The notes beneath the pieces were generated by a model. It did not search any database, was not told where the DNA came from, and was given only the letters and a program-made list of their open reading frames with translations. Positions 8,191-24,592 of a stretch of DNA of 24,632 bases are shown here, one piece after another. Position numbers and translations under genes: made by a program. Every line of letters starts with the position of its first letter. Positions within the stretch are counted from its first letter, which is position 1. The DNA is from a virus. Where the stretch lies: IMG/VR virus record IMGVR_UViG_3300002231_000541, positions 65,003-89,634 of that record. One strand, 5' to 3'.

Positions 8191-8709
8191 ATGATATTAG
8201 GATTGGATATAAGCACAAGCATCGTTGGAGTGTGTGTTCTACAGGATAACAAGGTAGTTCATGCTGGATACATCGATCTTCGAAAAGTGGGAGATTTTTT
8301 TGCAAAAGCGGAAAAAGTAGATGAATATTTGCAAGCTCTGGAATTTCCCATTGAGCACATCTTCATTGAGCAGGCCTTGATGTTCTTCCGCCGAGGAGGT
8401 TCAACTGCAAAAACAATGGCTGTCCTTCAACGTTTCAATGGAGTGGTTTCGTGGTTATCGCATAAGCAGTTTGACATCCACCCAGAGTACGTTACTCCTA
8501 TTGGTGCCCGATCTAAATGTGGAATTAAAGTGCCCAAAGGCAAAAAAGCCAAAGATGTGGTAATGGAGCACTTTATAAAAAGCAAAGAGTTTGAAATTGA
8601 TTATACTCGGTATGGAAATGTTCAGAAATATTGTTATGATATGGCTGATGCAATTGTCGTTGCCAGAGCTGGGCACTATTTATTACAGGAGAATCACGAA
8701 AATGTCTGA
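8191..8709 (+). CDS. RuvC-like Holliday junction resolvase
   Basis: 172 residues with an RNase H-like fold signature. The first strand is MILGLDIST with Asp6, the second acidic residue is Glu60 in FIEQAL, and the third site is YDMADAIVVA with Asp150 and Asp153. The spacing fits RuvC, whose four acidic residues bind two metals to cut Holliday junctions symmetrically. Length is close to the usual 155-175. A Gly/Lys-rich stretch (113-121) may contact DNA. In phages of this type such enzymes resolve recombination intermediates and debranch DNA before packaging. The ATG directly abuts the stop of the virion gene, and the stop overlaps the next start by eight bases, so this gene sits in a mixed structural and replication operon. 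Family assignment is solid, and branched-DNA substrate is inferred from the family. Confidence 0.88.
   Translation: MILGLDISTSIVGVCVLQDNKVVHAGYIDLRKVGDFFAKAEKVDEYLQALEFPIEHIFIEQALMFFRRGGSTAKTMAVLQRFNGVVSWLSHKQFDIHPEYVTPIGARSKCGIKVPKGKKAKDVVMEHFIKSKEFEIDYTRYGNVQKYCYDMADAIVVARAGHYLLQENHENV
8687..8693 (+). promoter_or_regulatory. Ribosome binding site AGGAGAA fixing the start at 8702
   Basis: AGGAGAA lies eight bases before the ATG at 8702. The longer reading from 8591 has no such signal and overlaps the catalytic end of the resolvase, so 8702 is the real start. Confidence 0.75.
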
Positions 8710-9271
8710 AATGAAGTTGATCATGGAAGGGTGGAGGTCTCATGTGGAGGACCAAAAATTTGAAATGATGCTAGGAACATTATTGAACAGCCACGGCCAA
8801 TTAAACGAAAGTGTGGCTGATGATATCAAAGAAAAGGTACGGCAAGTAGCTAGAGAATATGGCAAAAAAGCCACCACCATAGCCATGGCCGCAATGCTGG
8901 CCACCAATGCAATCGCTCCTGGCATAGCCGCTGCTTCGCCTCCGGCCGTAGCCTCTGACGCTCCCAGGATAGCGCAGCAAGTCGATAATGATGCCGCTGA
9001 AGAAGAAACAAAAAAACCAGCTGCCCAAGCCCTAAAGAAAATTTTTCAAGATATTGGAGACTCCTTTAAACAAGATGGGGAAATAGGAAAGCTGTTTTCG
9101 AAAAAAGACAAGAACCAAGACGAGGTGTCAGATTCGGATAGTAAAGATCTTATAATACAACACATAAAGGCAAAAGCCGAAAGTGGTATCGACCTAAGTC
9201 CGGACGAAGTGCAATTATTGGACCTATATAATCAGCACGGACCCAATTGGGACTCTCAAATTGAAAAATAA
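8702..9271 (+). CDS. Unrecognised protein with possible capsid-targeting N-terminus and Ala-rich hydrophobic segment
   Basis: 189 residues from the start set by the strong upstream ribosome binding site. The start overlaps the resolvase stop by eight bases. The N-terminus MSEMKLIMEGWRSHVEDQ is a short amphipathic helix with I-M-E at 7-9, followed by a second candidate L-N-E at 34-36. Both fit the (I/L)-X-E rule of T4 gp21-type prohead proteases. Residues 56-80 are Ala- and Met-rich and hydrophobic, preceded by basic residues and followed by small residues, resembling an export signal or membrane segment placed internally. The rest (98-189) is charged and probably helical. A plausible reading is an internal head protein that is trimmed and possibly delivered to the host with the DNA, but that is inference. 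No enzyme motif is seen. Confidence 0.7.
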   Translation: MSEMKLIMEGWRSHVEDQKFEMMLGTLLNSHGQLNESVADDIKEKVRQVAREYGKKATTIAMAAMLATNAIAPGIAAASPPAVASDAPRIAQQVDNDAAEEETKKPAAQALKKIFQDIGDSFKQDGEIGKLFSKKDKNQDEVSDSDSKDLIIQHIKAKAESGIDLSPDEVQLLDLYNQHGPNWDSQIEK

Positions 9272-9274
9272 TCC

Positions 9275-9303
9275 TTGACAGGCGCCCTCAACTATGCTAT
9301 ATT
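9275..9303 (+). promoter_or_regulatory. Near-consensus sigma-70 promoter for the primase gene
   Basis: TTGACA (9275-9280) is a perfect -35 box. After exactly 17 bases comes TATATT (9298-9303), which matches TATAAT at five of six positions. The expected transcription start, about seven bases downstream, falls on or next to the primase ATG at 9310. It lies in a 38-base gap. Its strength suggests host polymerase reads the primase and SbcDC genes early, apart from the surrounding structural genes. Confidence 0.7.
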
Positions 9304-9309
9304 AATAAT

Positions 9310-10233
9310 ATGCAAGAGAAGTTGAATATTCTAGTTGGTATTCTCGGGTCGTGTTACGCCTCCGGAGATGAGCATCTTTTTAGATGCCCCTATTGTAAAC
9401 ACCATAAGCGCAAACTTTCGGTTAATGTCGAAAAGGGCGTATATAAGTGCTGGATCTGTGATGCTCGTGGTAAAAAACTATCACGAATTGTACGCCGCTT
9501 CGGGTCCTTCAATGAACAGGAGGAGTGGAAACTTGTTTCGGGAGAAGTCACCAATTTAAATGACTTTGACGACCTCTTTAAAGAAGAAATCATTGTTGCC
9601 AAGGAACAATCTATTCCTCTGCCCGACCACTTCCACACTCTTTGCAACTCTTCAAAAGCGCGCCAACCTATGGCATATTTAAAATCACGAGGCCTTGACG
9701 AGAGAGATGTTCTGAAGTGGAAAATGGGCTTTTGTAGTGATGGGCCCTATAAAGATCGCATTATTATACCTTCTTTCAACTTGGGGGGTAATTTAAATTA
9801 TTTTATAGCTCGGACATTTGTCGATGATTGGCGCAGGTATATAAACCCATCAGCCAGCCGAGATATTATTTTTAACGAGCTTTATATCGATTTTGATGAA
9901 GAAGTGACTTTGGTAGAGGGGGTTTTTGATGCGCTTAAAACCAACAATGCTGTCCCGCTTTTAGGATCCACTCTACGTGAAGGGTCGAGGCTTTTTACTA
10001 AAATAGTCAAGAATGATACAGCTGTCCTCTTAGCACTGGATCCAGATGCTACATATAAATCTACGAATATTAAAAACTTATTATTGAAACACGGAATAGA
10101 AGTGAGAGAAGTTAAATACGAAGATCATCGTGATCTTGGTGAGATGACGAAAGATGAAGTTACAGCAATGAGCACAAAGGCGCCGTTCGTGCGACAATAT
10201 GATGAATTATTGTCCGCCATCGGCTCTTTATAG
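9310..10233 (+). CDS. DnaG-type DNA primase (zinc finger plus TOPRIM)
   Basis: 307 residues. The N-terminal zinc finger has Cys26, Cys29, Cys47 and Cys50, with His31/His32 nearby, as in CHC2 primase fingers that read the template. A KDRIIIPSF strand (148-156) matches the DnaG RNA polymerase core. The TOPRIM part shows Glu203 in LVEGVFDA, Asp207, and the metal-binding pair Asp244 and Asp246 in ALDPDA. The protein makes RNA primers for lagging-strand synthesis. It is short for a bacterial DnaG (about 580) because no helicase-binding C-terminal domain is present, so a separate helicase elsewhere is expected. There is no Shine-Dalgarno sequence, and the strong promoter would start transcription at about the ATG, implying a leaderless message. 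Its stop overlaps the ribosome binding site of the SbcDC gene. Confidence 0.9.
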   Translation: MQEKLNILVGILGSCYASGDEHLFRCPYCKHHKRKLSVNVEKGVYKCWICDARGKKLSRIVRRFGSFNEQEEWKLVSGEVTNLNDFDDLFKEEIIVAKEQSIPLPDHFHTLCNSSKARQPMAYLKSRGLDERDVLKWKMGFCSDGPYKDRIIIPSFNLGGNLNYFIARTFVDDWRRYINPSASRDIIFNELYIDFDEEVTLVEGVFDALKTNNAVPLLGSTLREGSRLFTKIVKNDTAVLLALDPDATYKSTNIKNLLLKHGIEVREVKYEDHRDLGEMTKDEVTAMSTKAPFVRQYDELLSAIGSL

Positions 10234-10237
10234 GAGA
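10232..10237 (+). promoter_or_regulatory. Ribosome binding site AGGAGA for a TTG start
   Basis: AGGAGA overlaps the primase stop and lies seven bases before the TTG at 10245. The encoded MKFAHIADTH is the expected beginning of an SbcD/Mre11 nuclease, so the unusual start codon is well supported. Confidence 0.8.
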
Positions 10238-10244
10238 CACTAAC

Positions 10245-13200
10245 TTGAAGTTTGCACATATAGCAGATACTCATATTAAAAACTTGAAATATCATTATGA
10301 GTATAAAATAATTTTTGATAAAATGTATCAAAAACTACGAGAAGAAAAGGTAGATTACATCATTCATTGTGGAGACATAGCTCACACTAAGACGCAGATT
10401 TCCCCCGAATTTGTAGAAATGTGTTCGGCTTTTTTTAGTAACCTAGCTGACATTGCGCCCACCTATGTAATCTTAGGAAATCACGACGGCAACCTTAGAA
10501 ACTCTAATCGCCAAGATGCCCTCACTCCCATTGCTGAAGCCCTTAACCACTCCAACTTGCATTTGCTTAAAAATTCGGGAGAAACCCCTATTGGTTCTGG
10601 GTTCACTCTGAATGTCTTATCTGTATTCGATGAAGATAACTGGGTACAGCCATCAGACACCTCGCAGATAAACATTGCGTTATATCATGGTTCCATCTCT
10701 GGCGTTGTGACCGACACAGGATGGGTAATGGACCATGGAGAACACCCTATTAATATTTTTGACGGCCATGACTATGCCTTTTTGGGAGATATTCATAAAA
10801 CCAATCAAAGCCTGGACGTCGCTGGCCGAATCCGCTATTGCGGATCTACTGTGCAACAGAATCATGGTGAAACAAATGATAAGGGATTTTTAATCTGGGA
10901 CATTCAAGATAAAGACGACTTTACCTGCATTCATCACATGATTTCCAACCCTCGCCCGTTCGTTACAGTGAACTTAACACCGAAGGGAAAAATGCCAAGA
11001 GGCATCCAGGTACCGAGCCACGCTCGTTTAAGGCTCGTCTCTAACAATAATCTGCCCATTGGAGTTATGCGCAAGGCCATGGATGTCGCCCAGCGGCGAT
11101 TTAAGCCCGAAACAGTGACGTTTTTAAACCGCGCAGCAGGTAAGCGAGGAAGTGTAGAAGGTTCCACAGAGGGTCTGCAGACCGAAGATTTGCGTAATAT
11201 TGAAATTCAAGAAAAGCTTATTCGTGAATATTTGACAGATTATGAAGTAGAAGAAGATTTAATGACGCGCGTCCTCAACTTGAATTTGCGCTATAATAAA
11301 ATTGCTGAAGAAAAAGAAGAAATATCCCGTAACGTCAATTGGCGCCTGCGCTCGCTGGAGTGGGACAATCTGTTCAACTATGGAAAAGGGAATAGTATCA
11401 ATTTCGATAACCTAGAAGGAATCGTGGGTATCTTTGGTAAAAACTTCTCCGGTAAATCCAGCATTATCGATTCTCTTTTATACACACTTTATAATTCCAC
11501 ATCGAAAAATGATCGAAAGAACTTAAACATCATTAATCAAAACCTGCCGGCCGGTTCTGGCAGGGCGAAAATATCGGTGGGCGATGTAGATTATTACGTT
11601 GAGATAGATTCTGAAAAGTATATTAGAAAGCTTAAGGGAGAGGTGACGACGGAAGCCAAGACAAATGTTGAATTCAACTGTTACGACCCGCTCGTAGATG
11701 CCTTGGAGAGCAAGAATGGCCTAACGCGTAACGAAACGGACAAGAATATCCGTAAAGTATTTGGTACTCTTGATGATTTTTTGTATTCATCTATGGCAAG
11801 TCAGATGGATTCTCTCACTTTTATTAAGGAAGGTTCCACCAAGAGAAAAGAAATCTTGGCTAAATTTTTAGATTTAGAGTTTTTCGAGCGAAAATTCAAG
11901 CTTGCTAAAGAAGAGGCTGCCGACACTAAAGGAGCCCTGCGTAAACTCCAGGACAAGAATTTTGATGAAGATATGGAGGAAGCCTCAAGTCAACTCGCAA
12001 ATGCTAATAGTGATTTATTAAAAAAGAAAATGGCTTGTGAATCCATGAAAGCAAAATTAGCAAAGTGCGAATCCCAGGTTCAAGAATTGGGAGAAAAGAT
12101 ACGATCTATTCCTGCTGAATTAATTGATGTTATGAAAGTTCGCAATGAGCTGGATGACAAGAAGGGCCAAGTCATAAAGGTGTCGGATGAAAGCTCGGAA
12201 ATGGCCGCATTGAGAGACAAAGATCGTGAGTCATATCAGAAGATCTTAGAATTTGAAGAAAATTACGATGAAAAGTCTTTGTTTGAAAAACAAGAGGTCG
12301 CAAATGAATTACTTGAAAGTCTTATTTCCCTGGAGACATCTTTAGGAGAAGAAAACAAAGAACTTGAAAGAAATCAGAAAAAGATAAAAATGCTAGAAGA
12401 TCACGAATATGATCCAGATTGTCATTATTGTTGTGAAAACTCCTTTGTTAAGGATGCCTATGTCTCTAAGACCAAGTTACCAAAAAATGAACGGGAAGTG
12501 TCCCGCCTCGCTACGATGATAGATGACTTAAATGACGAAATTAAAGAAATAGACCCTCAAGAGGTAGAGTCAGATATCTACAAATATAATACTTTAATAA
12601 ACAAGAAAAATGCTTTATCTAACCAAATCACAAATTACGACCTCAAGATAGAAAAAAATGACTCCATCATCAAGTCTCTCATGGTCGAGATAGGGGCTAT
12701 AGAGGCTAAGTTGTCTGAATATGAACTCAACAAGGAGGTTATTGACAATCTTGAGGGCCTCAATAAGAATATGAAAAGCTTAAAATTTCAATCCAAGACC
12801 ATTCAGAATAACTTTGAGGAGTGCAATGGTTCTGTTTTAGATTTGTACAAAAAAGTGGGCTCGCTAGAACAAAAGGTGATAAACCTAGAGAATCAACGCC
12901 AGGAACTGCAGGATTTGCAAGAGGAGTTCTCCGCCGCCGACCTTTATATGCGCTGCATGCACCCCAACGGTATTGCTTATGATGTAATTAAGCGCAAGCT
13001 TCCTGTCATCAATGAGGAGATCGCCAAGATTTTGGCAAATATTGTAGATTTCGAGGTATTTTTTGAAGACGATGGTAAGCGATTAGATATTTTTATCAAA
13101 CACCCGCTTTATGGCCCTAGGCCTCTGGAAATGGGCTCTGGTGCCGAAAAGACTATTGCAGCCATGGCCATCCGGCTTTCTCTGCTAAGTGTGTCCAGTC

Positions 13201-13406
13201 TTCCAAAATCAGATATTTTCATTCTTGACGAGCCGGGTACCGCCCTCGATGAAGAAAACATGCAGGGATTTATTGATATTCTTGATTTAATTAAGTCTTA
13301 TTTTAAGACCGTGCTTCTGATTTCCCACTTGGATAGCCTAAAGGACTGCGTAGACATGCAAATCACAATTGATAAGAAAAATGGATACGCTTCAGTTAGT
13401 CTCTAA
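10245..13406 (+). CDS. SbcD-SbcC (Mre11-Rad50, T4 gp47-gp46-like) fusion nuclease-ATPase
   Basis: 1053 residues from a TTG start. Residues 1-330 form an Mre11/SbcD metallophosphoesterase with all main motifs: Asp8 and His10 (IADTHI), Asp44 (HCGDIAH), Asn79, His80 and Asp81 (LGNHD), His148 (YHGS) and His184 (LGDIHK). From about 365 an SbcC/Rad50 ATPase follows: Walker A (GKNFSGKSS, about 398-406), a long coiled coil (about 530-910) bearing a CHYC zinc hook (Cys726, Cys729), a signature segment MGSGAEK (about 961), Walker B ILDEPGTALDE (about 990-1000), and a switch histidine in LISHLD. Such complexes trim broken or hairpinned ends and start recombination. Bacteria and T4 encode the two subunits as separate genes. 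Here they are one chain with no internal stop, fixing 1:1 stoichiometry. The signature lacks the usual LSGGE wording, as in divergent phage members. Confidence 0.95.
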   Translation: MKFAHIADTHIKNLKYHYEYKIIFDKMYQKLREEKVDYIIHCGDIAHTKTQISPEFVEMCSAFFSNLADIAPTYVILGNHDGNLRNSNRQDALTPIAEALNHSNLHLLKNSGETPIGSGFTLNVLSVFDEDNWVQPSDTSQINIALYHGSISGVVTDTGWVMDHGEHPINIFDGHDYAFLGDIHKTNQSLDVAGRIRYCGSTVQQNHGETNDKGFLIWDIQDKDDFTCIHHMISNPRPFVTVNLTPKGKMPRGIQVPSHARLRLVSNNNLPIGVMRKAMDVAQRRFKPETVTFLNRAAGKRGSVEGSTEGLQTEDLRNIEIQEKLIREYLTDYEVEEDLMTRVLNLNLRYNKIAEEKEEISRNVNWRLRSLEWDNLFNYGKGNSINFDNLEGIVGIFGKNFSGKSSIIDSLLYTLYNSTSKNDRKNLNIINQNLPAGSGRAKISVGDVDYYVEIDSEKYIRKLKGEVTTEAKTNVEFNCYDPLVDALESKNGLTRNETDKNIRKVFGTLDDFLYSSMASQMDSLTFIKEGSTKRKEILAKFLDLEFFERKFKLAKEEAADTKGALRKLQDKNFDEDMEEASSQLANANSDLLKKKMACESMKAKLAKCESQVQELGEKIRSIPAELIDVMKVRNELDDKKGQVIKVSDESSEMAALRDKDRESYQKILEFEENYDEKSLFEKQEVANELLESLISLETSLGEENKELERNQKKIKMLEDHEYDPDCHYCCENSFVKDAYVSKTKLPKNEREVSRLATMIDDLNDEIKEIDPQEVESDIYKYNTLINKKNALSNQITNYDLKIEKNDSIIKSLMVEIGAIEAKLSEYELNKEVIDNLEGLNKNMKSLKFQSKTIQNNFEECNGSVLDLYKKVGSLEQKVINLENQRQELQDLQEEFSAADLYMRCMHPNGIAYDVIKRKLPVINEEIAKILANIVDFEVFFEDDGKRLDIFIKHPLYGPRPLEMGSGAEKTIAAMAIRLSLLSVSSLPKSDIFILDEPGTALDEENMQGFIDILDLIKSYFKTVLLISHLDSLKDCVDMQITIDKKNGYASVSL

Positions 13407-13422
13407 CTACTTAAGGTAAAAT

Positions 13423-13441
13423 GGATCCCCTAGGGGTATCC
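13423..13441 (+). repeat. Imperfect inverted repeat in the gap after SbcDC
   Basis: GGATCCCC, TA, GGGGTATCC is a near palindrome interrupted by one unpaired base. The loop is too small for a good hairpin and no T-tract follows, so a protein-binding site is as likely as a terminator. It lies in a 56-base gap before the fibre-type gene. Confidence 0.3.
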
Positions 13442-13462
13442 AACCAAGGGAGATAAATTATT

Positions 13463-14644
13463 ATGGGATATTTGACAGAAAATTCACTTTATACGGCAGG
13501 TACAGACGCTTCAGTCATTAGCGGATCAGCACCAATTAGCGGATCTGCGGGGTCTGGGTCATATGTGACAGGTAGTGAGCCAGCTTCGGGCGACTCTGGT
13601 CTCATGAAACTTCCGGGACAAACGGGATTCTTTATTCACAGTGCTGTGCCATATGGACTTTGGTTACGAGAATACAGCACAGGTGCTTGGACTCAAGTCC
13701 AACTCTTTGACGAATCGAACCTGATTGAGAGCACGACCTACGAATGGGGAACTAAAGACTGCCTATATATCCAGTCTTTCTCTGCTGATCAAAAGGTCTA
13801 TGTCTATCCTCGTACTGGTCCTCTCTATATTGATGGTGATACTTCGGATGGCGTAAATGCCCACGATACTGTGGTTCTAGATGGCTTACAACAAGCTGTG
13901 ACTGCTGGCTCTCCTATCTCTAATGGGATTAATAACGGATCTCTGGCTGTCATTTCTACCGACCCTGCCGAGACGGCATTTCGTGTTTCAACCTCGACAG
14001 ACGACAACTTTTTTGTAATCGATGAATCGGGTAGTTATGATGGCCGCGCGCGTGTCATGGTGCAAACCACCAATGACTTTGACGCATCAGATGTTCCATA
14101 TTTGGGATATGCCCGAGGCCTCGTTCATATCGAACGAGAGGCAGATGATACCCAATGCGCTTTAAGTATTTGGTCTCATGGGGGAACGCATAGTGATAAT
14201 TCGGGCGTCAACCTTGTTTCATGGGCCTCAAACGATAACGTTGGCTCTTATCTCAACTTTTTGTCGAACGATGGCACATTCCCCGCCGGCAACGTACCCG
14301 ACACCAAGATGCTTGGAAAAATTAGTTTCGGCGGTTATACCAATAACCAGCACCGAACAGGGGCTCATATTACAAGTCGCGCCACTCAAGCATGGCATTA
14401 TGGCAACAAGCTGGGAACCAAGATTGTACTGTCCACCACTCCCAATGACACCAATGTGGCAGCTGATCACTTAACAGTATCATCTGCTGGTATTGTTCTT
14501 CATGCTCCGGCATCTGCCATTGACTCGGCAGAGTTGAATAATTCATCTATGTGTATGAGTCTAGACGAAGCCACTAACAAGCTTACTATTACTGTCAAAT
14601 ACTCGGACGGCACAGTTAAAACTGGCCTCGTAGATCTATCATAA
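13463..14644 (+). CDS. Fibre or adhesin-like virion protein, paralogous N-terminal domain
   Basis: 393 residues. AGGGAG precedes the ATG by about ten bases. The first 45 residues are Ser/Gly/Ala rich with a short internal duplication (ISGSAP, ISGSAG). Residues about 52-155 form a beta-rich domain homologous to the N-terminus of the next gene product: GFFIHSAVPYGLWLRE, a Tyr/Trp strand, YIQSFSADQKVYVYPRTGPL, then DTVVLDG. Beyond this the proteins differ. This one continues with a Gly/Asn/Ser-rich region (160-360) that looks like short beta strands of a fibre shaft or receptor-binding head, and ends in LTITVKYSDGTVKTGLVDLS. No lectin, hydrolase or chaperone motif is recognised. The probable role is a short tail fibre, spike or head decoration. 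The shared domain would be the virion anchor, by inference. Confidence 0.65.
   Translation: MGYLTENSLYTAGTDASVISGSAPISGSAGSGSYVTGSEPASGDSGLMKLPGQTGFFIHSAVPYGLWLREYSTGAWTQVQLFDESNLIESTTYEWGTKDCLYIQSFSADQKVYVYPRTGPLYIDGDTSDGVNAHDTVVLDGLQQAVTAGSPISNGINNGSLAVISTDPAETAFRVSTSTDDNFFVIDESGSYDGRARVMVQTTNDFDASDVPYLGYARGLVHIEREADDTQCALSIWSHGGTHSDNSGVNLVSWASNDNVGSYLNFLSNDGTFPAGNVPDTKMLGKISFGGYTNNQHRTGAHITSRATQAWHYGNKLGTKIVLSTTPNDTNVAADHLTVSSAGIVLHAPASAIDSAELNNSSMCMSLDEATNKLTITVKYSDGTVKTGLVDLS
13517..13545 (+). repeat. Short tandem duplication ATTAGCGGATC, 18-base period
   Basis: The 11-mer ATTAGCGGATC occurs at 13517-13527 and 13535-13545, encoding the repeated Ile-Ser-Gly-Ser peptides near the fibre protein N-terminus. 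This is a low-complexity linker duplication, with no sign of a mobile element. Confidence 0.6.
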
Positions 14645-14655
14645 AGGAGACATGG

Positions 14656-16083
14656 ATGGGACAATTAACTTTACAAAATCAACACTTTATCGAGGGCGTA
14701 AATACGGACTTTATTGGCCAATCTGCTCCCGTAGCCCAAGTCGGCGAAGTGAGAGACCAGACTCACAGTGGTTTTTTTATCTATGCCACAGCAGACTATA
14801 CGTTGTGGTTCAAGACCGCAGCCGGCTCCTGGATTCAACATCAGCAGGTTTCATCTATTGACCCCACATCGCGAACATTTAGCTGGTCAGATAATATCGC
14901 CCTTTATTTGCAGGCTACCGATGTATCCCAGGTGTTTTATATCACCGCCAGAGACGGCGCCCTGTTAATTGATAATACTCCGGCGGATGGATCTGATGCG
15001 GTAGACACGTTGGTGTTAAGCACAGCAACTAGTTTACGGGTTTTTGGCGCGGGAAGTGTTATAACCCAGACTGAAACATCTCATGTCATCTCTGACGCAT
15101 CGCCTGTCACTATCGATACTCCAAACGAAGGGACTATTCAAGTAGTCGAAGACACCTCGGACTATGCAAATTCTTTATCTTCTAAGCTCGCCGCCTATTA
15201 CAACTTCGACGATGAAACAGCTAATGATTCCACGATTGGCGAAAATCATGGTACAGTCTCTGCTGGCTGCGTATATGTTAATGGCAAAACTGGCCTGGGG
15301 AAAGCACTTCACCAGACTACCGGAGATGCTCACGTATCTTTGAACAACCCTGATTTGATGAATCTAGGTCCGGATTTCACTGTCACAGCCTGGGTATATA
15401 TTCCGTCGACACAGGCCGAGACTGACCCAGTGGACAATCCTTATAATGACATCTCTATTTTCTGTAATACTGATTCTTTTGGAGACTGGACTTATGTAAC
15501 TGGATTTAACTTAGTCGTACCCAAACCGGGCTATGCAGGCGGCTGGGGGATGCCATCTAACTGTGTAGCTTTCTACTCTGGCGTGGGTCAGGGAAATGGA
15601 ATTTACTCTTGGGCATGGTATGCCGTAGCTTCACCACAAAACTCTTTTCCATATGACGAGTGGGTACATGTCGCTCTGACATTTTCAGGTGCGGATCAAG
15701 CCAGTTGGGGCGGTAATGAAAAACTATTCATTAACGGACAACTCCAGGCTCTGACATCCAGAACTAATCAGCCCGCCCAGAACGCCATGGAATGGACCGC
15801 TGATCCTCTTAATGTAAACCTAGGCGCTGCCCTCCGCACGAGTCACCCTTTGCCCATGGCTGGCTCTGGTGAATTGAAATATGATGAGATCGCTATCTGG
15901 AAGAGGGAGCTATCTGAAGCCGAAATCACATCGCTCTATAACAGTGGCACCGGCCAACAATTGGATACCACCTATGTCAATTCCGAAGTAGTCCGTGAAG
16001 ACTTTACTATAACAACGGCAGTAACAGTAGAGGCTCCAGCGGGTACCGATGATACAAATATTACAGTTAGAATCACAAAATAG
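14656..16083 (+). CDS. Fibre or adhesin-like protein with LamG-like lectin domain
   Basis: 475 residues. The ATG at 14656 has AAAGGAGA six bases upstream. A second ATG four bases earlier opens only a short frame. Residues about 38-140 are homologous to the previous protein (GFFIYATADYTLWFK, ALYLQATDVSQVFYITARDG, DTLVLS). After a Thr/Ser linker, about 175-445 is a LamG/concanavalin-like jelly roll: LAAYYNFDDE, a GKAL turn, FTVTAWVYIP, EWVHVALTFSG, KLFINGQL, and KYDEIAIWKRELSEAEI, the standard closing motif of that family. The last 30 residues form a small beta tail. Such lectin-type domains bind glycans, so this is a credible receptor-binding or adhesion protein on the particle. The different C-termini on a common N-terminal domain suggest modular swapping of host-recognition parts. 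Confidence 0.8.
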   Translation: MGQLTLQNQHFIEGVNTDFIGQSAPVAQVGEVRDQTHSGFFIYATADYTLWFKTAAGSWIQHQQVSSIDPTSRTFSWSDNIALYLQATDVSQVFYITARDGALLIDNTPADGSDAVDTLVLSTATSLRVFGAGSVITQTETSHVISDASPVTIDTPNEGTIQVVEDTSDYANSLSSKLAAYYNFDDETANDSTIGENHGTVSAGCVYVNGKTGLGKALHQTTGDAHVSLNNPDLMNLGPDFTVTAWVYIPSTQAETDPVDNPYNDISIFCNTDSFGDWTYVTGFNLVVPKPGYAGGWGMPSNCVAFYSGVGQGNGIYSWAWYAVASPQNSFPYDEWVHVALTFSGADQASWGGNEKLFINGQLQALTSRTNQPAQNAMEWTADPLNVNLGAALRTSHPLPMAGSGELKYDEIAIWKRELSEAEITSLYNSGTGQQLDTTYVNSEVVREDFTITTAVTVEAPAGTDDTNITVRITK

Positions 16084-16095
16084 ATACTAATTATA
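16083..16095 (+). promoter_or_regulatory. Intergenic motif GATACTAATTATA, copy 2; candidate phage promoter
   Basis: Exact copy of the motif at 5067-5079. It begins at the stop codon of the LamG protein and is followed by CTATA and the ribosome binding site GGGAGG. A TATACT resembling a -10 box overlaps its end, but no -35 box is found at the right distance. It would drive the membrane-protein cluster and possibly the head genes. Confidence 0.4.
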
Positions 16096-16111
16096 CTATA
16101 CGGGAGGACTC

Positions 16112-16312
16112 ATGACAATGACAGAAATGGCAAAAGGCGCAGTTGATAAAGCTTTGGAGAAGATGGTTTCGCGTAAACTACTTGTGTGGGCCACTGCTAC
16201 AGTTTTATTATTCACTTCTAATTTGGAAAGTGAGCATTGGCTTTATTTAAGTGCTTTATATATCGGAGGCCAGTCAGTGATTGACGCCATCGTGAAACTA
16301 AAAAGTGCATAA
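16112..16312 (+). CDS. Small two-helix membrane protein, holin candidate
   Basis: 66 residues after GGGAGG. The first ATG is only four bases from that signal, so the second Met (16118) is a possible start. After a charged N-terminal helix come two hydrophobic stretches, about 23-40 (KLLVWATATVLLFT) and 43-60 (HWLYLSALYIGG and on), with a short linker and a Lys-containing C-terminus. Size and topology match class II holins, and the gene begins a run of membrane and coiled-coil proteins. Holins are too diverse for sequence alone to decide. It could also be another small inner-membrane protein. No endolysin gene is visible in the window. Confidence 0.55.
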   Translation: MTMTEMAKGAVDKALEKMVSRKLLVWATATVLLFTSNLESEHWLYLSALYIGGQSVIDAIVKLKSA

Positions 16313-16322
16313 GTAAACAAGC

Positions 16323-16328
16323 GAGGAT
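16323..16328 (+). promoter_or_regulatory. Ribosome binding site GAGGAT for a TTG start
   Basis: GAGGAT lies three to five bases before the TTG at 16332, whereas the first in-frame ATG (16347) is about 20 bases away. This favours the TTG start. Confidence 0.5.
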
Positions 16329-16331
16329 ATT

Positions 16332-16733
16332 TTGATTAACATCAATATGGGCGAAATGTTTAAATCGCTCGGATCATTTATTGCAAAAAATTGGCAGATT
16401 TTAGCGCTATTGCTAATGGTGGTGCTCTTTTTTATGACAAAAAATGACTATGCAGCTCTCAAAAAATCGATGGATGTAATGAGTACATCTTATGAAGAAC
16501 AACTATCTTTGTTGCAAGAACTTCACGAAGAAGAGCTTTTGCGCAGAGATGAGGCTATTGCTTCCTATGAAGCTTTCATAGAAGAGTTGGAGGAGCAACA
16601 TAGGCTCGATTTAGAAGAAATTGCCAAAGCTCGTGAGCAAGAAATAGAAGACAATATTCAAGATTTCGAAGAAGCACCCAGTGAACTAGCTGAAGAAATA
16701 GAAGATTTATTTGGATTAGACTATGTGGAATAA
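16332..16733 (+). CDS. Membrane-anchored coiled-coil protein, possible i-spanin-like
   Basis: 133 residues from a probable TTG start. A single hydrophobic helix at about 17-36 (NWQILALLLMVVLFFM) is followed by a highly acidic coiled coil (about 42-110, rich in Glu, Leu, Gln), with no signal peptidase site. An N-terminal anchor and a periplasmic helix is the layout of Rz-type i-spanins, which bridge to the outer membrane at lysis in Gram-negative hosts. It overlaps the next gene by 11 bases, as spanin gene pairs often do. However, the partner lacks a clear lipobox, so the spanin label is a guess from topology. It could also be a tail-associated or superinfection membrane protein. Confidence 0.5.
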   Translation: MININMGEMFKSLGSFIAKNWQILALLLMVVLFFMTKNDYAALKKSMDVMSTSYEEQLSLLQELHEEELLRRDEAIASYEAFIEELEEQHRLDLEEIAKAREQEIEDNIQDFEEAPSELAEEIEDLFGLDYVE

Positions 16734-17151
16734 ACTCGCACTGATGTTAATATTGTTCTCCCCTTTGGCCGAGGCCTCGGAAGGAAAATTTACCTTCTTA
16801 CAGCAAGAGCAATGTGCACCGTTTTCAGGAACCTTATTTGACCCTACGGCTACTGCAAAAATTATTGCTCATCACAAGTTTCTTAAAGAAGAATTCGATT
16901 TAAAGCTGGCATATCAGGTATCGATACTAGAAGCTCAACATGATCTGGAAATAGAACAATTTAAGATTTCGCTTGACATTCAAGAGAAAAAATGTAATAA
17001 TATGATAGAAATCAAGGATAGGGAAATAGAAGGTTTAAACAAGATTATTGCCAAAAAGCCCGGAAGCAACGCTTTGCTATGGGGCATCCTTGGTGGCTTT
17101 GTAGCTGGGGCTGCAGCAACAGTGGGCATCGTCTATGCGGTGAACAAATGA
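16723..17151 (+). CDS. Exported coiled-coil protein with C-terminal membrane helix
   Basis: 142 residues. It has a short signal peptide (KLALMLILFSPLAEA, cleavage expected near residue 18) and then a mature N-terminus with Cys31 in QCAPFSGTLFDPTA. An Ala/Lys/Glu-rich coiled coil (about 45-112) follows, then a C-terminal glycine-zipper-like transmembrane helix (118-139, WGILGGFVAGAAATVGIVYA). The topology, with exported N-terminus, periplasmic helix and C-terminal inner-membrane anchor, is that of a unimolecular spanin. A lipoprotein box is absent, so this would be an atypical one. The Cys-Ala-Pro-Phe segment looks conserved in my memory of marine phages, unverified. It overlaps the upstream coiled-coil gene by 11 bases and the next gene by four (ATGA). 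A lysis role is inferred only. Confidence 0.55.
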   Translation: MWNKLALMLILFSPLAEASEGKFTFLQQEQCAPFSGTLFDPTATAKIIAHHKFLKEEFDLKLAYQVSILEAQHDLEIEQFKISLDIQEKKCNNMIEIKDREIEGLNKIIAKKPGSNALLWGILGGFVAGAAATVGIVYAVNK

Positions 17152-17540
17152 AAAAAGATTTAAATGAAATCGCCAAATATGAAGTAGCTATTTCCCAAAA
17201 ATATGGGAAAGAGGCAATTCAGCATCCCAAGGCTGATTGGACGGACGAAAAAGAAAAAGAATACCAACAACAAATGCGCGAGTTGTACGAAAAAGAGAAA
17301 AAGCAACAAGAAAAAAACGAAAAAATTGAAATCGATGGTTTTTTAATATCCAAAAAACTATTTAGTAAGGATAGCAATAGAAATTGTCCGGTTTGTCATG
17401 CTTATTCTTTTGATTCTCGTGATGATGTTTATATGACAAAATTTGATTGTTGCTATAAATGCTATATACAATTTGTTGAGGGTCGAGAAGCCCGCTGGTC
17501 AGAAGGCTGGCGACCAGGAGAAAAAAATGAAAATCACTAA
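17148..17540 (+). CDS. Zinc-ribbon protein of unknown function
   Basis: 130 residues. The start at 17148 uses an ATGA overlap with the preceding stop and is preferred over the longer frame from 17079, which would cover that gene's membrane helix. Residues 30-60 are a charged helix (many Lys, Glu, Gln). The C-terminal half has a probable zinc ribbon: Cys80, Cys83 (CPVC), then Cys101/Cys102 and Cys105 (CCYKC), inside an aromatic-rich segment ending GREARWSEGWRPG. The segment around SKDSNRNCPVC looks highly constrained, and I recall similar proteins in marine phage contigs, though not their function. A nucleic-acid-binding or assembly role is possible. It overlaps the following gene by 14 bases, so translation is coupled. 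Confidence 0.7.
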   Translation: MKKDLNEIAKYEVAISQKYGKEAIQHPKADWTDEKEKEYQQQMRELYEKEKKQQEKNEKIEIDGFLISKKLFSKDSNRNCPVCHAYSFDSRDDVYMTKFDCCYKCYIQFVEGREARWSEGWRPGEKNENH

Positions 17541-18141
17541 ATCACAATTAGTAAATATTATCCAAGAAGAGGTGCGGAAAGTCCACGAACAATTGCCCCC
17601 TACGGATGACGAAATCGCCAGCGCCTATGGTACATCGTTGGTGACTGGCTTCGAAGATGAAGACGGAGAGTGGCAACCATATGAGCGATCCGACACTCCC
17701 GAGTATGACGCAATCGTGGATGTTCTCGATAAATTGGACTCGGAGGACACAATTGCATCCCACTTGGACTCGATGCTCTCTGATCCAGACGTTGTAGCGC
17801 ACTTTAGATTAGATGAGGCACCCCCCGAAGCAGTAGCAGAAGCCCGCGAGTGGGTTGAAGTAGGAATTGATGCCGTCAAGGACGTCTTGATTAATGATAT
17901 CGATGTGAAGGCAATGATGCAAAAACACGGAAACCCAAGTTGGGAAGATTTCGCACACAAAGTCCGAATGATAACTACTGCGGTCAAAACGCCAAGCCAG
18001 CGATCTAAAAATATCCGTCAGCGATTTGGATATCGGATGCTAATCGTCGCCATGGGCGAGCTACTCAACCAAGCCGCCGCCACATCTGGCGCTGGATCCC
18101 TGAGAAAAGGAAAGGGCTTCGGCTTTAAAGATATAGAATAA
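17527..18141 (+). CDS. Unrecognised protein with possible capsid-targeting N-terminus (MKITKSQL)
   Basis: 204 residues from the ATG at 17527, which has AGGAG six bases upstream. The longer frame from 17443 runs through the zinc-ribbon protein. The N-terminus MKITKSQLVNIIQEEVRKVHEQ is a short amphipathic helix with I-Q-E at 12-14, matching the (I/L)-X-E cleavage rule of T4 gp21-type proteases. I recall the same opening on otherwise unrelated proteins from marine phages. The middle (30-120) is acidic. From about 125 the chain turns basic, with RSKNIRQRFGYRM near 160 and a Gly/Lys tail. An internal head protein that binds DNA through its basic half would fit, but that is inference. No enzymatic motif is seen. 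Confidence 0.7.
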   Translation: MKITKSQLVNIIQEEVRKVHEQLPPTDDEIASAYGTSLVTGFEDEDGEWQPYERSDTPEYDAIVDVLDKLDSEDTIASHLDSMLSDPDVVAHFRLDEAPPEAVAEAREWVEVGIDAVKDVLINDIDVKAMMQKHGNPSWEDFAHKVRMITTAVKTPSQRSKNIRQRFGYRMLIVAMGELLNQAAATSGAGSLRKGKGFGFKDIE

Positions 18142-20271: not shown

Positions 20272-22257
20272 ATGGCAGATAGAACAAAGAACCCCAATAA
20301 CCCCCAATCTGAATTATTTAGAAGACTGACTCGACTCTTTTCTGGGCCCATTATTAATTGGAGAACCCAGCAAAATAGAAAGATTCGCCGAACGGCCTTG
20401 GACAAGTACGCCACACAATTTAAGTCCGCATCAGGACAGCAATTTAAAAAAGCAGAATATAGTCCTTTTGATGTGATGCATTCTAAAATTATGGCTCAAC
20501 AAAACCGCGCAGAGCGCTATGTTGACTACGAGCAGATGGAATATATGCCAGAAATTGCTTCTGCCATGGATATTTACGCAGATGAGATGACGACACATTC
20601 GGCTTTAAGTCCCATGCTTAACATTGAATGTCCCAATGAGGAAATCAAGGCCGTGCTTCACTCTCTCTACAGCAATGTGCTCAATTTGGAGCACAACCTT
20701 TTTGGATGGTGTCGGTCGATGTGCAAATTTGGAGATTTTCTGCTCTATCTTGACATTGACGATCGCCTGGGAATCAAATCTGTCGTCTCCCTACCTTTAA
20801 GAGAGGTAGAGCGCCTAGAAGGCGAAGATCCCACAAACCCCAACTACATACAGTTCCAGTGGAACTCCGCTGGTATGACTTTTGAAAATTGGCAAGTCGC
20901 CCATTTCCGTATTTTAGGTAATGACAAGTACGCCCCTTATGGCACTTCCGTTTTAGATGCCTCTCGGCGTATTTATCGACAGCTAGTGCTCATGGAAGAT
21001 GCTATGATGGCCTACAGAATCGTGCGCTCAAGCGAACGACGCGTCTTTTATATTGATGTGGGTAATATTGCCCCTACAGACGTCGAACAATTTGTACAGA
21101 AGACTATTACTTCGATGAAGCGAAACCAAGTGGTTGATGCTAATACTGGTCGTGTAGATCTCCGCTACAATCCCCTATCTGTAGAAGAAGATTATTTCAT
21201 TCCCACTCGTGGAGGAGAGACTTCTAAAATCGAAACGCTACCAGGTGGAAACTTTACTGGCGACATTGACGATGTTAAATATTTGCGCGATAAAATGTTC
21301 GCGGCCTTAAAGATCCCGCCCGCATATCTCTCCAGCGACTCGGAAGTTACAGAAGATAAGACCACTTTAGCACAAAAGGACGTGCGCTTTGCACGAACAA
21401 TTCAACGTCTGCAACGCGCCGTAGTGACAGAGCTGGAAAAGATTGGCATTATTCACCTTTATACTCTGGGATTCCGAGGCGATGACTTGGTAAGCTTTAG
21501 GTTGAAATTGAATAACCCGTCGAAGATTGCAGAACTCCAAGACTTGGAGGAGTGGAAGACTCGCTTTGAAATCGCTTCTGGTGCTACTGAAAACTTCTTT
21601 TCTAGAAGGTGGATATCTCAAAACATTTTTAACCTTTCGGAAGAGGAATTTGTTAGAAATCAGAGGGAAATGTTCCATGACCGCAAATTTGAATCTGAAT
21701 TAAATGCAACCGCCGAAGCAGCTGCCGAAGAAGCAGCCTCCGCCCTTGGAATGGGTGGCGATGATCAATTCGCAGACTTGGAAGCAGGGGGTAGAAACAG
21801 AAGTATTTTGATGCCGGCGCCGACGATTCCTCCCCCGGAAGATACCGGTGGAGCAGAACCCATTGATGATGTTGGTGATGCCGACGAGGGCCCTCTTTTA
21901 GATTTCCCCGCCGCCAAACGCGATGACACTGGCCGAGACGAAAGAGGCCGCCGCACAACAGCCAACTCCCAGACAGCACGCGCCAAAGGAAAGAAGCATG
22001 TCTCTACATCTCGTCGAGGTGGAGATGGGCGAAATGGCCGCATTCAAAATTACGCAGCTATGGCAATCCCCAAGCCAAAAGACATTATCCCAGGGCTGTC
22101 AGATTTAAAAAGCTATTCTCGTGGTATTTATGAAGATAAGCAAACTAATTACAATAACGAAGAAAATCTCTTATTCGAAGTAAAATCTGAAGTTAGGAAC
22201 TTAATTGGCGAACTAGAGAAAGCGGAGATAAAAATAAATGAAGATGAAACACAATAA
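20272..22257 (+). CDS. Portal protein, T4 gp20-like
   Basis: 661 residues, comparable with T4 gp20 (about 520) plus an extension. The portal core is recognised by several conserved stretches: ERYVDYEQMEYMPEIASAMD (about 83-102), WCRSMCKFGDFLLYLD (about 144-159), YAPYGTSVLDASRRIYRQL (about 222-240), RRVFYIDVGNI and KMFAALKIPPAYL (about 341-353). The protein forms the dodecameric ring at the head vertex through which DNA enters and leaves, and serves as the docking site for terminase and neck. The C-terminal 130 residues are low complexity, first acidic and Pro/Gly-rich, then Arg/Lys-rich, then helical. This extension is unusual in length and may act inside or outside the head. Translation is coupled to the next gene by a 20-base overlap. 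Confidence 0.93.
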   Translation: MADRTKNPNNPQSELFRRLTRLFSGPIINWRTQQNRKIRRTALDKYATQFKSASGQQFKKAEYSPFDVMHSKIMAQQNRAERYVDYEQMEYMPEIASAMDIYADEMTTHSALSPMLNIECPNEEIKAVLHSLYSNVLNLEHNLFGWCRSMCKFGDFLLYLDIDDRLGIKSVVSLPLREVERLEGEDPTNPNYIQFQWNSAGMTFENWQVAHFRILGNDKYAPYGTSVLDASRRIYRQLVLMEDAMMAYRIVRSSERRVFYIDVGNIAPTDVEQFVQKTITSMKRNQVVDANTGRVDLRYNPLSVEEDYFIPTRGGETSKIETLPGGNFTGDIDDVKYLRDKMFAALKIPPAYLSSDSEVTEDKTTLAQKDVRFARTIQRLQRAVVTELEKIGIIHLYTLGFRGDDLVSFRLKLNNPSKIAELQDLEEWKTRFEIASGATENFFSRRWISQNIFNLSEEEFVRNQREMFHDRKFESELNATAEAAAEEAASALGMGGDDQFADLEAGGRNRSILMPAPTIPPPEDTGGAEPIDDVGDADEGPLLDFPAAKRDDTGRDERGRRTTANSQTARAKGKKHVSTSRRGGDGRNGRIQNYAAMAIPKPKDIIPGLSDLKSYSRGIYEDKQTNYNNEENLLFEVKSEVRNLIGELEKAEIKINEDETQ

Positions 22258-23974: not shown

Positions 23975-24592
23975 ATGTCAAAAGTTTTATTAAGAGAATA
24001 CTATGCTCTGTGTGAAGGTGGCGTTTGCCAAGATTTGCTCACCGAAGCCGAAAAAAGAGATATTAAAGAAAATAATGCCATGTATTTGACTGGCCTAATG
24101 CAACAGGCGGACACAAGAAATGGAAACGGTAGAGTATATCCCCAGCGCGTCCTTATGCGCGAAATGGAGACATACAAAAAGCTAGTAAAAGAAAAGAGAG
24201 CACTTGGAGAACTGGATCACCCAGATGACTCTGTAATTAATTTAAAGAATGCCTCTCACATGGTGACGAATATTTGGGCAGACGGCCCAAAAGTTATGGG
24301 AACCGTTAAAGTCCTAAACACACCGGCCGGAAATATTCTCCGCTCCTTAGTGGATTCAGGAGTCCAACTAGGAATTTCTTCTCGCGGCCTTGGGTCTGTA
24401 ACTGAAAGCATGACGGGCGGAGTGGTTGTTGAAGACGACTTTCAGCTTATCTGCTTTGATTTCGTTTCCGAGCCAAGTACACCAAATGCCTTTATGAATT
24501 TGCAGGAAGGCAAACAGTACACAGAACCGAACATTTTTACCAAAGCCGACAAGATTAATCGAGCTTTGAATGACATTTTGAGGAAAAAATGA
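23975..24592 (+). CDS. Prohead protease, T4 gp21-like (peptidase S80 type)
   Basis: 205 residues, ATG preceded by AGGAG. The N-terminus (about 1-30) is a removable-looking helix. The core contains NGNGRVYP (49-56), the catalytic His82 in LGELDHPDD, and the nucleophile Ser135 or Ser136 in LGISSRGLG, the motifs of the gp21/S80 prohead proteases (herpesvirus-like fold). The third catalytic residue is not assigned with confidence. The enzyme is packaged in the prohead and cuts scaffold, capsid and internal proteins after (I/L)-X-E. Length matches T4 gp21 (212). Context agrees: portal upstream and probable scaffold gene starting at its stop (ATGA). It could also process the two proteins with possible capsid-targeting N-termini in this window. 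Confidence 0.92.
   Translation: MSKVLLREYYALCEGGVCQDLLTEAEKRDIKENNAMYLTGLMQQADTRNGNGRVYPQRVLMREMETYKKLVKEKRALGELDHPDDSVINLKNASHMVTNIWADGPKVMGTVKVLNTPAGNILRSLVDSGVQLGISSRGLGSVTESMTGGVVVEDDFQLICFDFVSEPSTPNAFMNLQEGKQYTEPNIFTKADKINRALNDILRKK

Follow-up and report, generated by a model that had tools for sequence, protein, structure and literature searches.

The DNA analysed here, which we call the window, is a stretch of 24,632 bases (G000:C1:65003-89634) from a viral record of 119,951 bases, and two of its genes raise a question: are their products cargo of the phage head, each marked for it by a short N-terminal leader that is afterwards removed? The first gene (8702..9271, + strand) encodes a protein of 189 aa starting with MSEMKLIMEGWRSHVED, and the second (17527..18141, + strand) a protein of 204 aa starting with MKITKSQLVNIIQEEVRKV; both open reading frames have a plausible ribosome-binding site. 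Family searches gave no convincing match for either candidate cargo protein, and tblastn with the whole proteins against INPHARED found no credible relative. We call residues 1-17 of the first protein leader B (MSEMKLIMEGWRSHVED, 8702..8752, + strand; HMM score 26.3 bits), identified by scans, consensus and comparison with T4, and residues 1-22 of the second leader A (MKITKSQLVNIIQEEVRKVHEQ, 17527..17592, + strand; HMM score 30.4 bits), identified by scan, control and consensus. The cleavage motif of the T4 gp21-type protease is (I/L)-x-E, and the initial annotation had pointed to two such triplets in these leaders, I-M-E at residues 7-9 of the 8702 protein and I-Q-E at residues 12-14 of the 17527 protein. 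Both are present. A single (I/L)-x-E close to an N-terminus means little, being easily met by chance; it is the recurrence of the leaders, not the single triplets, that goes beyond chance.

The consensus of leader A is MKITKxQLKxIIKEE...LxE, and we searched public viral contigs for MKIT(K/R)x(Q/E)LxxIIxEE with a degenerate pattern at the DNA level. The pattern was found in at least 120 DNA stretches with at least 186 ORFs, against a chance expectation of about 1e-4 estimated from base frequencies, and a control pattern built in like manner from the permuted codons had no match in the public viral contigs. For leader B, with the consensus MKL(I/L)MENWRK(F/Y)LxE, the pattern MK..MExWR gave at least 120 stretches and at least 131 ORFs, where about 2 were expected by base-frequency estimate. 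When leaders were removed and the bodies clustered (E<1e-3), the 180 listed leader-A ORFs fell into 140 clusters (119 singletons) and the 126 listed leader-B ORFs into 63. The leaders thus stand in front of at least 140 (leader A) and at least 63 (leader B) body families that do not match one another, and each behaves as a transferable module shared by unrelated phage proteins, as the initial annotation had suggested. One leader-A scan pattern fixed I12 and E14, and conservation was judged from the unconstrained positions and a relaxed scan.

The 140 listed families use 79 distinct leader peptides of 15 residues, encoded by 137 distinct DNA versions. Leader pairs differ at codon position 3 in 44% of cases, at position 1 in 16% and at position 2 in 14%; third positions vary about three times as much as the others, which means that selection acts on the leader peptide and not on the DNA. 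Tandem runs of leader-A genes are frequent, and the distances between neighbours (-4 to +3 bases) are those of an operon. Among 257 Gb of prokaryote genomes, only 9 stretches from five MAG assemblies had a match to the leader-A pattern, and two of these assemblies also have a gp21-type protease; the leaders are thus almost confined to phages. Of 140 leader-A genes that are otherwise unrelated, 7-8 have a block TATGAATGGATTAGCAAC (core GAATGGATTAGC) directly upstream, which looks like a shared cassette boundary (loci including L028, L040, L049, L080, L085, L090 and L128).

Among cultured phages in INPHARED, tblastn gave no matches with the 22-residue leader-A consensus, a query that is too short, and only E=7 matches with the likewise short leader-B consensus, the low-complexity filter being on in both cases. 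Loose regular expressions missed a cultured relative, Flavobacterium phage immuto, in which the leader-A HMM found MKKSQLRxII-type starts. These starts are on four small proteins (NC_055915, at 102294, 102880, 113188 and 123355) and appear to be a shortened form of leader A. The leader-like proteins of this phage (vB_FspM_immuto, grown on Flavobacterium sp. LMO8) are gp072, gp080, gp094 and gp095. In the other cultured relative, Microcystis phage Mel-JY01, the leader-A HMM gave no convincing leader.

Ten residues of T4 IPIII are enough for packaging; positions 4 and 7 serve targeting, processing depends on positions 8 and 10, and a D at position 10 stops processing with targeting retained (PMC9026906). 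The second half of leader B matches the T4 capsid-targeting sequence (CTS) MKTYQEFIAE at all four positions mapped by mutation. In a relaxed scan, with only MKLIMEN fixed and the W slot free, the leader B families have W (.81) or F (.13) in slot 4 and F (.49) or Y (.26) in slot 7, which gives.94 and.75 for the two targeting slots, while the processing slots hold L/V/I (.77, slot 8) and E (.74, slot 10). Residues 8-17 of the 8702 protein align with the T4 CTS, with W and H in the targeting slots and V and D in the processing slots, the D being in the slot of T4 position 10. Leader B can thus be classified as a putative T4-CTS-like variant, and the 8702 leader reads as a degenerate, worn copy of such a CTS. 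Leader A is not similar to MKTYQEFIAE; its consensus is without the aromatics of slots 4 and 7, and therefore we do not file it as a T4 CTS, only as a leader that would work like one.

If a leader is removed by a gp21-type protease, (I/L)-x-E is expected near the leader end even when its position shifts. Residues 17-26 of leader A contain the motif in 75 of 140 families, where column shuffles gave 38.3 +/- 3.8 and, in 2000 runs, at most 53; 65 families are without it in this range. Residues 11-20 of leader B contain it in 44 of 63 families, compared with 32.1 +/- 2.3, and 0 of 2000 shuffles reached 44. By the same test the leader families showed no enrichment of the spacings I/L-E, I/L-xx-E and I/L-xxx-E, and none when V/A replaced I/L, when D/Q/K replaced E or when the motif was reversed. 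The register of (I/L)-x-E slides between leader families. Capsid propeptides in leader-bearing genomes again end with this motif (LLENQAxQLLxE|A/S/T), at a cut that we infer from the position in T4 gp23. In the genome of the window, the gp23-like major capsid gene is outside the window at G000:91820, and its protein has LLRE|SS where cleavage would be expected by analogy with gp23.

A cut of the 8702 protein after I-M-E at residue 9, as proposed earlier, is probably wrong, since W11 and residue 14, which occupy the T4-like targeting slots, are downstream of I-M-E. This triplet belongs to the conserved MKLIMEN block, and cutting there would therefore leave the targeting residues on the protein. 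The best candidate site is L34-N35-E36 | S37 (8801..8809, + strand), which came from alignment with three diverged homologs: L407, which is 44% identical and has an identical leader type, and also L169 and L196, all of them carrying leader B. QLNE|S of the 8702 protein aligns with LLTE|G (L169), QITE|G (L196) and IIQE|G (L407), and the site at 34-36 is kept despite 27-44% identity. Since it is aligned in all three homologs, the cut is likely after residue 36.

The hydrophobic, export-signal-like segment that had been noticed in this protein (IAMAAMLATNAIAPGIA, 8879..8929, + strand) is real by hydropathy and alignment, and is conserved among members of the 8702 family. Such a segment after the leader, with an export-signal-like end (...ATNALAPGMAMA|AD), is present in the 8702 protein, L407, L169 and L196, and also in L206, L121 and L179. 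It could direct an injected protein to the membrane or periplasm.

In the 17527 protein, a cut after I-Q-E at residues 12-14 survives as a possible extra site; the family-typical cut would instead be at the helix end (residues 19-22), where there is a second site, V-H-E at 19-21. The helix comprises residues 5-22 in a low-confidence AlphaFold model from a single sequence (mean pLDDT 45), which was left out of fold searches. The body of this protein is acidic, and its basic tail, also described before, is confirmed by a pI of 11.0 for the C-terminal 50 residues.

The genome of the window is of the T4 type in its head and tail genes. The window contains a terminase (18679), a T4-type portal of the gp20 family (20272..22257, + strand; Portal_T4, E 2.4e-74) and a prohead protease (23975..24592, + strand). 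The latter is rightly assigned to the gp21 type, as it matches Pfam Peptidase_S77 (E 8.6e-32) and the phrog_207 head maturation protease (E 3e-55), with the T4-type portal nearby, and it is presumably the processor of both leaders. A scaffold-like gene is outside the window at G000:90805. Elsewhere in this genome, at G000:984, there is another leader-A gene (MKITTTQLIKIIKEEVEKVLEEG), and a protein of 853 residues at G000:4101 has a T4-CTS-like start, MKNWKAFLKEQ, which aligns with MKTYQEFIAEA of T4 IPII/IPIII. Directly 3' of the protease, at G000:89592-89670 (L007, 13592 onward), there is a leader-A-like core gene (MKKQELQKVLKPLIxECIKEVIF), with one N and an apparent frameshift in the assembly. 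At 16332-17151 of the window two small genes overlap; the product of the first weakly matches Rz-like spanins, and that of the second has a hydrophobic segment at its N-terminus. They are possibly a lysis pair.

Leaders are also found within head clusters. Between protease and scaffold, a small conserved gene has a leader-A-like start (MKKSELKNIIKECVKEVIFEEG; MAKITKRMLKGIVKECLVEILSEG), and when 3068 ORFs were ranked with the leader-A HMM, true leader-A genes aside, 7 of 17 proteins of this kind were in the top 20. The gene directly 3' of the protease has a B-like leader in L377, L380, L381 and L382 (for example MDTWKEFLTEAP), and in L387 six leader-A-type genes are located between the portal and the capsid gene. 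A leader-bearing genome of 242 kb (L394) has a tandem pair of gp23-like capsid genes at 11110 and 13082.

An S77 protease was detected in 34 of 52 leader-A records with a length of 30 kb or more against 3 of 25 random records (Fisher p 8e-6, ancestry ignored) and in all 19 leader records of at least 150 kb, an association confounded by ancestry and genome size, with only one random record reaching 150 kb. The idea that the leaders go with a prohead protease is supported. Against head targeting, 18 of the 52 leader-A records have no S77 match. Those long records without S77 that were checked also lack gp23, with one exception that has gp23 near a contig end, so that fragments explain most of the gaps. 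In G004 and G050 the T4-type portal is kept, and neither protease nor gp23 was found. A phrog_207 search of the records without S77 had no match anywhere and is uninformative.

The domains recognized in the cargo include zeta-toxin-like kinase, NUDIX, HD_4, C5 methylase, GNAT, M23 peptidase and 2H-type phosphodiesterase. In zeta-toxin kinase, NUDIX, HD and C5-methylase cargo the domain starts at residues 17-26, immediately behind leader B. Most mature cargo is acidic (median pI 5.1), whereas the T4 internal proteins are basic (PMC9026906), and we count this against head targeting. The reading of L159 as an ADP-ribosyltransferase from its VYHYTS motif was tempting because T4 Alt is packaged; it had no support in Pfam or PDB and was dropped.

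T4-type head targeting is the best explanation for leaders A and B as putative capsid-targeting sequences, and we give it a probability of about 0.75 on the recurrence and modularity of the leaders, the exact protease motif and the association with protease and head genes. This part of the initial annotation stands, and its cut site in the 8702 protein does not. The N-terminal amphipathic helix would dock the protein onto the assembling prohead core, and the cut by the co-encoded gp21-type protease would follow an (I/L)-x-E that ends the helix or lies beyond it. The mature protein would then remain in the head with the DNA and presumably be ejected into the host. Leader A may be another such docking helix; it is similar to the N-terminus of the conserved small protein encoded between protease and scaffold. 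Against head targeting, the copies in the window are atypical, with D in the cleavage slot of leader B and V-H-E in the end slot of leader A.

The leaders might also stay on their proteins as helices that dock to some virion structure (core, portal, neck or inner face of the capsid) and bring the proteins into the particle, as parts of its structure or to be ejected, the protease motif being incidental or used only sometimes. This would agree with the leader A helix (I12, E14) being far more conserved than the terminal cleavage-like site, and with the many leader-A families that have no motif there. But it is precisely (I/L)-x-E that is in excess, and this while its register slides, which is hard to explain without cleavage, and the homologs of the 8702 protein keep their site at such low identity; we consider permanent helices unlikely.

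An address at another cell site (host membrane, RNA polymerase, protease adaptor or phage compartment), with the protease link coming from shared ancestry in one large marine phage lineage, seems quite improbable to us. Many leader genes are in small-gene arrays without demonstrated head-gene neighbours, and kinases, methylase, HD and NUDIX cargo could act during infection, but injected enzymes would likewise act then. The four-position match of leader B with the mapped T4 CTS, the protease-motif signature in the leaders, and the leader genes and leader-like core protein within the head cluster all speak for the head. Look-alike short amphipathic K/E-rich helices, as an artefact of chance or composition, deserve hardly any credence: leader A is of low complexity and (I/L)-x-E by itself is common, but the scans rule this out, by the empty permuted control and by the diversity of leader peptides and DNA versions across the families.

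Returning to head targeting, we find it somewhat probable that leader A is a head tag independent of the T4 CTS, perhaps derived from a prohead core protein, with which a major marine phage group loads a large, fast-changing and unrelated set of proteins, several per genome, for injection. No earlier description of leader A was found in the open-licence literature, which is weak evidence of novelty, and in the same literature no relevant paper prints the leader A or B sequences. If the reading is true, a string of 15-22 residues marks injected head cargo among the unknown genes of uncultured phages from sequence alone, and counter-defence and takeover proteins are probably frequent in the marked set. 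The principle of the T4 internal proteins would also be widened from a few coliphage genes to general, modular delivery, and the leaders would be new tags to package chosen proteins into phage heads.

Leaders A and B are like the T4 CTS (IPI/IPII/IPIII, Alt) in being N-terminal leaders of 10-20 residues on unrelated proteins, with a gp21-type protease in the genome and an (I/L)-x-E end. Leader B further shares the aromatics of slots 4 and 7, I/L/V in slot 8 and E in slot 10, but has an extra MKLI in front (often after MS(E/D)) and W replacing Y, whereas leader A has another sequence and another length. Unlike the T4 CTS, both are on far more protein families, often in several tandem genes and with mostly acidic cargo, and they are known here from sequence alone. 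The inner-head proteins of phiKZ, 201phi2-1 and SPN3US resemble the proposed use in having propeptides cut after E by a gp21-related protease. Several SPN3US propeptides have more than 100 residues and only one has about 20 (PMC5694885), and the literature consulted on these three phages describes no shared short leader on unrelated proteins. Between gp67 of T4 and leader A there is only a loose likeness (LIKEEK...LIEG), and the gp67 and gp68 genes are upstream of the protease gene, unlike the leader-A-like core gene. Still, these T4 core proteins are small and encoded near the portal, protease and scaffold genes, as is the leader-A-like protein here, between protease and scaffold.
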